A stretch of DNA of 35,301 nt from Neisseriaceae bacterium (lineage in GTDB: Bacteria; Pseudomonadota; Gammaproteobacteria; Burkholderiales; Neisseriaceae), in the NCBI GenBank assembly GCA_017645365.1, contig JAGCOT010000065.1:1-35301 (forward strand), written 5' to 3'. Under the pieces are notes generated by a model that saw only the letters and a list, made by a program, of their open reading frames with translations, was not told the DNA's origin and made no database searches. Below, in pieces: positions 1 to 35,301 of this stretch; the stretch's first letter is position 1, and every line of letters begins with the position of its first letter. Made by a program: the position numbers and the translations under genes.

Positions 1-93
1 ATCGGCTGCACTTCTTGCTGTAACTTCTAATACAAAAAATTCAAGCAGTTTCTTCTGTACAGATTTCTTTAATTTACAATGCGTTATCTTCAT
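1..93 (-). CDS. IS1595-family transposase, N-terminal fragment (runs off window)
   Basis: The ATG at 93-91 opens a frame of 31 codons that continues past the left edge. It begins MKITHCKLKKSVQKKLLEFF and includes VTARSAAD, which I recognise as the N-terminus of IS1016-like transposases of Neisseriaceae. The catalytic DDE-type domain lies outside the window. The start codon is 20 bases inside the terminal repeat, as expected for this compact family. Whether this copy is intact cannot be judged. Confidence 0.82.
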   Translation of the reverse strand, partial: MKITHCKLKKSVQKKLLEFFVLEVTARSAAD

Positions 94-132
94 TTTTGCA
101 GTCTATCATAACTGCTAATCTAATACAGCCCC
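1..132 (-). mobile_element. IS1595-family (IS1016-like) insertion sequence, transposase-start end, cut by window edge
   Basis: The first 132 bases are the end of an insertion sequence next to the transposase start codon. The outer 19 bases (114-132) are the exact reverse complement of GGGGCTGTATTAGATTAGC at 35163-35181, so they are the element's terminal inverted repeat. The transposase reads leftward off the window. The element inserted into bioH. IS1595 elements usually duplicate 8 bp of target, so AAATTTTT at 133-140 is the expected duplication, but the partner flank lies outside the window. Confidence 0.88.
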
Positions 133-528
133 AAATTTTTTTATTTGATGAAGATAATCGCCTGCCAATTTTTGGGCGTATTCCGTCATATTTGGTTGTC
201 CAAACGGATAATCTTCCGCCATACTAAAACGCGAAAAAGAAGAACACAATGTCAGCGTTTTGATTTTTTCAGGGTGCCTGTATGCCATCAGCAAAGCAAT
301 ATAGCCCCCCAAAGACCAGCCAAAAACATGAATCGCTTGCGAATATTGGCAAGCAATTTCATCAGCGATTTTTTCAGGCATAAAATTTTCCACCGCTTTT
401 GCTTGTCCATGTCCTGCCAAATCTTGTGCAAGACAGGAAAAACCTTGCAAACGCGGTAAAAAATCATCAAAAACCGCACGATTGGTTGCCCAACCGTGCA
501 ATAAAACGCTTTGCGTCATCGCATTCAT
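115..528 (-). pseudogene. bioH: Pimeloyl-ACP methyl ester esterase BioH, truncated by IS insertion
   Basis: This is the N-terminal half of an alpha/beta hydrolase resembling BioH, which removes the methyl ester from pimeloyl-ACP in biotin synthesis. The oxyanion-hole motif HGW (residues 11-13) and the nucleophile elbow GWSLGG (Ser72) are present. Family members have about 250 residues. Here 132 native codons are followed by GAVLD and a TAG, both read from the terminal repeat of the IS at 114-132. The catalytic Asp and His in the C-terminal half are missing, so the product should be inactive. The start lies 1 base after the stop of the upstream LOG-family gene, so the two were probably co-transcribed. 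ATG at 519 is an alternative start. The specific assignment rests on half a protein; another small esterase is possible. Confidence 0.78.
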
Positions 529-529
529 C

Positions 530-1174
530 TTAATGATAAAAATTTTGAATTGCCGTTAAAACTTCCTGTGGGTCGTCCATCACAGTGATTAAATCCAAAT
601 CTTTGGCAGCAATCATATTGTTTTTTAACAACTGATTTTTAAACCAATCGACCAAACCTGTCCAAAAATCGCTGCCGAACAAAATCACAGGCATCAGCGG
701 AATTTTTTGCGTTTGGATTAAAGTTAGGGCTTCCATCAATTCGTCCAAAGTGCCAAAACCACCAGGCATGACAACATACGCCACAGAATAGTTGATAAAA
801 GTTGTTTTGCGTGTGAAAAAATAACTAAAATCCAAAGCGATGGTTTGATAGTCATTCGGTTTTTGTTCATGTGGTAATTGAATATTCAAGCCAATCGAAG
901 CACTTTTCCCCGCAATCGCCCCTTTATTGGCCGCTTCCATCATGCCTGGACCGCCACCTGAAATCACCGCAAAACCAGCATCAGACAATAATTTTGCCAA
1001 TTCTTGACATTGTTGATAAATGGGATTTTCAGGTTTTGTGCGTGCACTGCCAAAAATGCTCACAGCAGGACAAACGCAGGATAAATTCTTGGCAGCATCG
1101 ACAAAATCGGACACCATTTCGCTGACCATTTCAGAAACATGGTACGATTCTCGTCCTTGACAATTAAATTCCAT
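530..1174 (-). CDS. LOG-family (TIGR00730) Rossmann-fold protein, likely nucleotide-5'-monophosphate phosphoribohydrolase
   Basis: This 214-residue protein carries the two signature loops of the LOG/lysine-decarboxylase-like family: SGGGPGMMEA (about 72-81) and PGGFGTLDE (137-145). Family members split nucleoside 5'-monophosphates into a free base and ribose 5-phosphate; some plant and bacterial members release cytokinins. The bacterial role is probably nucleotide turnover, and the exact substrate cannot be read here. The start at 1174 is supported by AAGGA 7 bases upstream. A repeated VSEM segment lies near residues 13-21. It is divergent from polA with only 12 bases between start codons, so its ribosome-binding site overlaps the polA start. 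It runs into bioH with a 1-base gap. Confidence 0.85.
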   Translation of the reverse strand: MEFNCQGRESYHVSEMVSEMVSDFVDAAKNLSCVCPAVSIFGSARTKPENPIYQQCQELAKLLSDAGFAVISGGGPGMMEAANKGAIAGKSASIGLNIQLPHEQKPNDYQTIALDFSYFFTRKTTFINYSVAYVVMPGGFGTLDELMEALTLIQTQKIPLMPVILFGSDFWTGLVDWFKNQLLKNNMIAAKDLDLITVMDDPQEVLTAIQNFYH

Positions 1175-35162: not shown

Positions 35163-35301
35163 GGGGCTGTATTAGATTAGCCCAAAAAATTGTTAAATTC
35201 CACACCATTTTCGCAAGGTTTTGAGTTGCTGTCTTGGTGTCCCATAGTTAAATCTAAACTCACATTCTTTCAAGAAAAGTGGGAAAGATTTGCGGTCAAT
35301 G
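35163..35301 (-). mobile_element. IS1595-family (IS1016-like) insertion sequence, transposase-stop end, cut by window edge
   Basis: GGGGCTGTATTAGATTAGC at 35163-35181 is the terminal inverted repeat, an exact inverse of 114-132. The transposase C-terminus lies just inside. The orientation is the same as that of the copy at the left edge. Confidence 0.88.
35193..35301 (-). CDS. IS1595-family transposase, C-terminal fragment (runs off window)
   Basis: The last 35 codons and TAA of a transposase, entering from the right edge. The sequence DRKSFPLFLKECEFRFNYG is the characteristic C-terminal block of IS1016-like transposases, and the product ends in RKWCGI. The stop codon lies 11 bases inside the terminal repeat. 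It cannot be joined to the N-terminal fragment at 1-93 within this window; they are different copies, or opposite ends of sequence collapsed in assembly. Confidence 0.82.
   Translation of the reverse strand, partial: IDRKSFPLFLKECEFRFNYGTPRQQLKTLRKWCGI

Follow-up and report, generated by a model that had tools for sequence, protein, structure and literature searches.

Both the gene and the mobile element at this locus have known counterparts. In the consulted portions of two studies, BioH is described as a promiscuous enzyme with a catalytic triad, and operon forms generally place its gene upstream of bioC (PMC5438404, PMC3494674). The consulted part of a third study gives 8-bp target duplications as usual for the IS1595 family of insertion sequences, which includes IS1016 (PMC8101967). 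We describe here a bioH gene of a Neisseriaceae bacterium that is interrupted by an element of this type. The window analysed corresponds to contig C87 in full (35,301 bases), which belongs to a genome of 1,781,866 bases in 144 contigs whose completeness is 99.99 and contamination 0; the features discussed are collected in Table 1.

Table 1. Positions of the bioH fragment, the insertion sequence parts and the neighbouring genes. Positions refer to the window unless another contig or locus is named.
Feature	Position	Strand	Remarks
Terminal part of IS1595-family (IS1016-like) element	1..132	-	Contig begins inside the element; terminal repeat at 120-132
Putative transposase start, first 31 codons, same direction as bioH	1..93	-	From sequence
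Codons GAVLD and stop TAG, derived from the IS and continuing the truncated bioH frame	115..132	-	From sequence
8-bp target duplication, AAATTTTT	133..140	+	Second copy at C81:12088-12095, beside the opposite IS end
5' part of bioH	133..528	-	132 native codons, nucleophile motif GWSLGG; stops at the IS junction
Rossmann-fold protein (TIGR00730), next gene upstream of bioH	530..1174	-	TIGR00730 E 4.8e-43
Further copy of the same IS, opposite end	35163..35301	+	Contig stops there
BioC homologue, own genome, frame still open	C81:11021-11755 (L071)	-	Downstream neighbour of bioH
BioC homologue beside bioH, without SAM motif I	L015, L017, L020-L022, L024, L027, L061-L066, L099-L101		

Read from the sequence, the minus-strand frame at 115-528 encodes 137 amino acids and ends ...QIKKF-GAVLD-stop. 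The 18 bases at 115-132, which in the bioH sense are GGGGCTGTATTAGATTAG, supply the final five codons with their TAG stop and are derived from the IS, whose terminal repeat at 120-132 is CTAATACAGCCCC. The initial annotation had claimed that bioH is cut by an IS that supplies its stop codon, and the junction bears this out. In a profile search the window gene matches the NCBIfam BioH family TIGR01738 along positions 4-136 of the 245 in the model (E 3.5e-30); the score of this fragment, 105 bits, is below the curated cut-off of 206.95, as are those of two whole proteins of the genus (171 and 190 bits), and one relative in the family reaches 364. The fragment also matches the Pfam alpha/beta hydrolase family, and the four best solved-structure matches of an alignment of the bioH family are BioH proteins. 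The bioH genes of six relatives in the genus (G001-G006) are 46-51% identical to the window fragment and have an uninterrupted frame. A search of the own genome for a second N-terminal half found none; there was one match only, and the other matches were to the IS end. The TIGR00730 protein encoded directly upstream is no known biotin gene. As a separate observation on the window, the 12-mers AGGCAGCCTGAA, AGGCAACCTGAA and AGGCTGCCTGAA occur 28, 14 and 13 times on the two strands together and ATGCCGTCTGAA 0 times; the recurring ones are likely a DNA-uptake dialect, and four short loci of relatives showed no AGGCAACCTGAA.

The 132 bases of the element that lie in the window are 74% identical, over their full length, to repeats that two N. 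gonorrhoeae records each contain at 16 places. Among the best 10 of 11 records, the annotated IS1595-like elements ISAba36 and ISEc69 are 71-72% identical to it over 132 bases and 76% over 120. The 31- and 34-residue transposase ends, which are very short queries, gave no match to Pfam or NCBIfam families, DDE_Tnp_IS1595 included. Many contigs of this genome start or stop in the same IS, and a pattern search, with a pattern that favours AT-rich flanks, found 82 matches to its ends.

A query made from an alignment of C-terminal parts only (A1; 13 relatives, 6 of the genus and 7 of the family) finds a single strong place for the other half of bioH in the own genome, C81:11757-12089 on the minus strand (E 2.3e-38). 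The next places resembling this half have E 0.04 and 0.25, and the first of these was rejected as a second bioH as it falls inside another alpha/beta hydrolase (C81:6863-7651). The frame of the C81 half spans 115 codons between the repeat and its stop (C81:11748-11750) and includes GEKDRLTPP and QSAHMPF, which in the alignment with solved BioH structures are the Asp and His positions. The Ser-Asp-His triad is thus not in one protein: the Ser motif is in the window half, Asp and His are in the C81 half, and the IS and a stop codon stand between them. The initial annotation had placed Asp and His in the missing half, had expected that half on another contig beside an 8-bp duplication, and had concluded that this BioH is lost. 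All three are supported, since the gene is broken into two halves on separate contigs, each abutting an IS end, with AAATTTTT at both junctions; a second intact bioH, which would have spoken against the loss, was not found in the own genome, and the frame is uninterrupted in the relatives G001-G006.

The bases at C81:12088-12108 are AAATTTTT followed by GGGGCTGTATTAG, and the junctions have a common stretch of exactly 8 bp; of the lengths between 4 and 13 bp, no other one fits. The window side and the C81 side carry two different ends of the element. The combination of AAATTTTT and an IS end has an exact match at three places in the own genome, so that the 8-mer alone is ambiguous as to the partner, and it is the continuity of the gene that identifies C81. 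Contig end C64 has a compatible 8-mer as well, and the search with the C-terminal half gave no bioH place there. Given the many contig ends that fall in this IS (the 82 pattern matches above) and the position of the junction at an assembly break, one might suppose that the contig just stopped within a repeat and that the chromosomal bioH is intact. We consider such an artefact very improbable, because a plain contig end would make no duplication at both ends of one gene, and here the IS bases 115-132 run straight into bioH, while on C81 the other half directly adjoins the opposite IS end, beside the same 8 bp. An apparent peak at 8 bp in duplication length over 84 IS ends was rejected as evidence, since the pattern that selected these ends itself contains AAATTTTT and so favours length 8; their AT content is biased by the same pattern.

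These features strongly suggest that an IS1016-type element of the IS1595 family transposed into codons ~130-132 of bioH and duplicated 8 bp in doing so. The element would share the orientation of bioH and part the nucleophile half in the window from the Asp/His half on C81, and the truncated frame takes its stop codon from the element's own terminal repeat. The IS is not assembled across the gap, and the link C87-IS-C81 is drawn from its flanks; a single element probably joins the two contigs, and the enzyme is in all probability dead.

When the halves are joined at one copy of AAATTTTT, the frames of the N-terminal and C-terminal halves differ by one base, at an A-run. A frameshift at the A-run is therefore present besides the IS, and it may have arisen before or after the element inserted. 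Both halves are free of stops in their own frames, and any decay would thus be recent. One variant of the decay explanation proposed below, and compatible with it, is that the frameshift had already killed bioH when the IS came, and that the element landed in a pseudogene. The shift of register by one base between the halves is in keeping with this order of events, as is the observation that the sampled IS ends abut open runs of at least 80 codons less often than do random points within the same flanks (27 of 84 against 62%), a figure that comes from a biased sample, the 84 ends having been drawn from 83 stretches with the AT-rich pattern. However, the A-run could equally well have gained or lost a base once the IS was in place, and both halves have remained stop-free, so that we regard the pseudogene variant as plausible and lean slightly away from it.

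Family searches for the other biotin genes were run over seven genomes of the genus (the own genome and G001-G006); non-homologous enzymes lie outside their reach. None of the seven has a bioF match over the TIGR00858 cut-off (best 29 bits), and the bioF-like match in the own genome was identified as serine hydroxymethyltransferase. Likewise, bioD was found in none of the seven, and no bioA match is over its cut-off (best 249 of 405 bits); of the bioA candidates, the best match and the best of the own genome are ArgD-type transaminases, and the second of the own genome is HemL. Matches to bioB (TIGR00433) are over the cut-off in G001, G002, G004 and G006, and those in G003 and G005 are cut by contig ends. 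No bioB was detected in the own genome, whose sole match (33 bits) is lipoyl synthase (LipA). The importer BioY was found in none of the seven genomes and rang in 9 of 14 controls; BioG was also found in none of the seven, but no control rang either, which makes this absence uninformative.

Thus none of the prototroph gene set of the BioC-BioH route (bioF, bioA, bioD and bioB) was detected in the own genome, and biotin synthesis would fail at several later steps whichever esterase is present. Of the two ways out that had been offered for the loss of BioH, another esterase or outside biotin, the first would therefore not suffice; the second stands, with no BioY found, and the strain presumably imports biotin. 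It could still be argued that the insertion was decisive and turned a biotin maker into an auxotroph, as E. coli needs BioH for the pimelate step according to the consulted portions of two papers (PMC3494674, PMC5438404). This is highly unlikely here: bioF, bioA, bioD and bioB are undetected as well, and the six relatives with an intact bioH are likewise without detectable bioF, bioA and bioD. Since these three genes are undetected in all seven genomes of the genus, outside biotin would already have been required before the IS arrived, and since most other biotin genes are missing in the own genome and its relatives, the break in bioH alone did not end synthesis. De novo biotin synthesis would then have been gone from the lineage first. 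We conclude that the IS1595-family hit in bioH is very probably gene decay in a lineage that was already without de novo biotin synthesis. Taken alone, the insertion is an ordinary case of IS-driven gene loss, and it warns against inferring auxotrophy from one broken gene.

In relatives of the genus (L073, L074, L076 and L079) bioB lies near a gene for a small membrane protein, which we take to be DUF486-like, with bioF, bioA and bioD undetected; the own genome did not show this arrangement. BioB acts on dethiobiotin, and the bioB of these relatives, without detectable bioF, bioA and bioD, could be fed by imported dethiobiotin only.

The search for bioH and bioF spanned 41 genomes, of which 16 of other families were left out of the family count, leaving 25 Neisseriaceae (BioH E<1e-15 with the window half as query; bioF E<1e-50). 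Five of these have both BioH and bioF, 16 have BioH without bioF (the own broken gene included), three have bioF without BioH and one has neither (Fisher p 0.08), where "without BioH" says only that the genome lacks a gene closely related to that of the window. The search for bioF works in Neisseriaceae, as it was found in 8 of the 25 genomes, in each with E<1e-100; two of the eight pass the curated cut-off, and the others score 366-416 bits. With 16 of 25 genomes carrying BioH without bioF, BioH is not tied to bioF in this family. One genome counted as without BioH, G017, has a distant BioH homologue (L262:1261-1974; TIGR01738 96 bits) adjoining bioA; this homologue is possibly the pimeloyl-ACP esterase of that genome. 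A tblastn search with bioF against plasmid records, including two N. gonorrhoeae chromosomes, gave 694 records, with no Neisseria among the best 8 and none of at least 60%. PLSDB records NZ_CP119140.1 and NZ_CP119142.1, N. gonorrhoeae of about 2.17 Mb, are evidently chromosomes listed as plasmids. The consulted portions of the literature on bioH and biotin in Neisseriaceae gave no report of this bioH locus, which is not proof of its absence there.

The neighbour downstream of bioH is a BioC homologue in all seven genomes of the genus. It was also seen in 7 of 14 other BioH-bearing genomes of the family, in flanks of about 1.1 kb (0.4 kb in one), so that the pairing is not universal. A BioH scan of contig records, in which 80 of 317 relatives were kept and the best of these was 36% identical, gave five Neisseriaceae records. 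The bioH-linked copy is present in Snodgrassella alvi, S. communis and a Neisseria MAG; Neisseria sp. MVDL19-042950 has none within 4 kb, and the Bergeriella record offers a flank of just 205 bases. In the two N. gonorrhoeae chromosomes the matches to bioH and to the BioC homologue are 20 bases apart, and bioB is present.

Against the BioC family TIGR02072 (cut-off about 185; 184.95), four copies of the genus score 33-61 bits, the own copy 33.3, and these four gave no Pfam match at E 0.001. An alignment of 17 sequences (A3), comprising 13 bioH-linked Neisseriaceae copies and 4 canonical beta-proteobacterial BioC proteins, shows that motif I (GxGxG) is missing in 13 of the 13 linked copies, which have GADGD, SADGG, GSDGG and similar in its place, and is AGSGTGYG or AGCGTGHG in all four canonical proteins; the own copy reads LLYGSDGG where GxGxG is expected. 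An AlphaFold2 model of the homologue has a confident methyltransferase-like fold (mean pLDDT 89.3). Its top solved match by E-value is AbBioC (8x8i/8x8j; TM 0.61, rmsd 6.0), and other methyltransferases have similar or slightly higher TM. The BioC homologue beside bioH may be a pseudoenzyme with another role.

Canonical BioC was seen apart from the bioH locus in this family. A BioC with motif I adjoins bioF in four of the eight bioF-bearing pieces (L256-L259, from G023, G008, G011 and G020), and two such bioF-linked Neisseriaceae proteins that were scored are over the cut-off (192 and 200 bits). On L262 a motif-I BioC is about 2.5 kb from bioF, and in the other three of the eight pieces none was seen. 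Comparison with loci L016 and L020-L022 showed that G008, G011 and G020 carry both a canonical BioC linked to bioF and a motif-less copy beside bioH.

For six uninterrupted bioH genes of the genus, dN/dS by the Nei-Gojobori method is 0.21-0.24 at dS 0.6-0.8, 0.31-0.49 in the three closest pairs, which have few changes, and 0.16-0.27 in saturated pairs. For the BioC homologue the same method gives 0.13-0.35 in unsaturated pairs and 0.24-0.51 in saturated ones, the highest values being those with the own gene. These ratios indicate that bioH and the BioC homologue are kept under purifying selection in relatives without detectable bioF, bioA and bioD.

Although bioH is usually taken as a biotin-synthesis gene, the 16 of 25 Neisseriaceae genomes that have a close homologue without bioF make two subjects testable: the real substrate of Neisseriaceae BioH, and what the neighbouring motif-less BioC homologue does. 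Neisseriaceae BioH may have a role outside biotin synthesis. Because the pair appears to be under purifying selection without bioF, bioA and bioD, and because several biotin makers have a separate canonical BioC, we tentatively suggest, while thinking it somewhat less probable than its contrary, that bioH and the BioC homologue form a pair outside biotin synthesis, an esterase with a partner that lacks the usual SAM binding. If so, the strain studied here would be a natural knock-out of the pair's esterase. What the IS struck here was a leftover or re-used bioH, and the stronger question is the function of the intact bioH/BioC-homologue pair in the relatives.

The three parts of the locus compare with known systems as follows. 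The element resembles the IS1016/IS1595 family in its 8-bp duplication, its short terminal repeats and its sequence, and differs in being known from its ends alone. The neighbour of bioH is homologous along its length to the malonyl-ACP methyltransferase BioC (TIGR02072); unlike true BioC, the bioH-linked Neisseriaceae copies are without motif I, and the four tested score far below the cut-off. Finally, while bioH is split here by an IS, in a genus whose genomes are without detectable bioF, bioA and bioD, it is like E. coli BioH (1m33/4etw; TIGR01738) an alpha/beta hydrolase whose Ser, Asp and His are spread over both halves of the protein.
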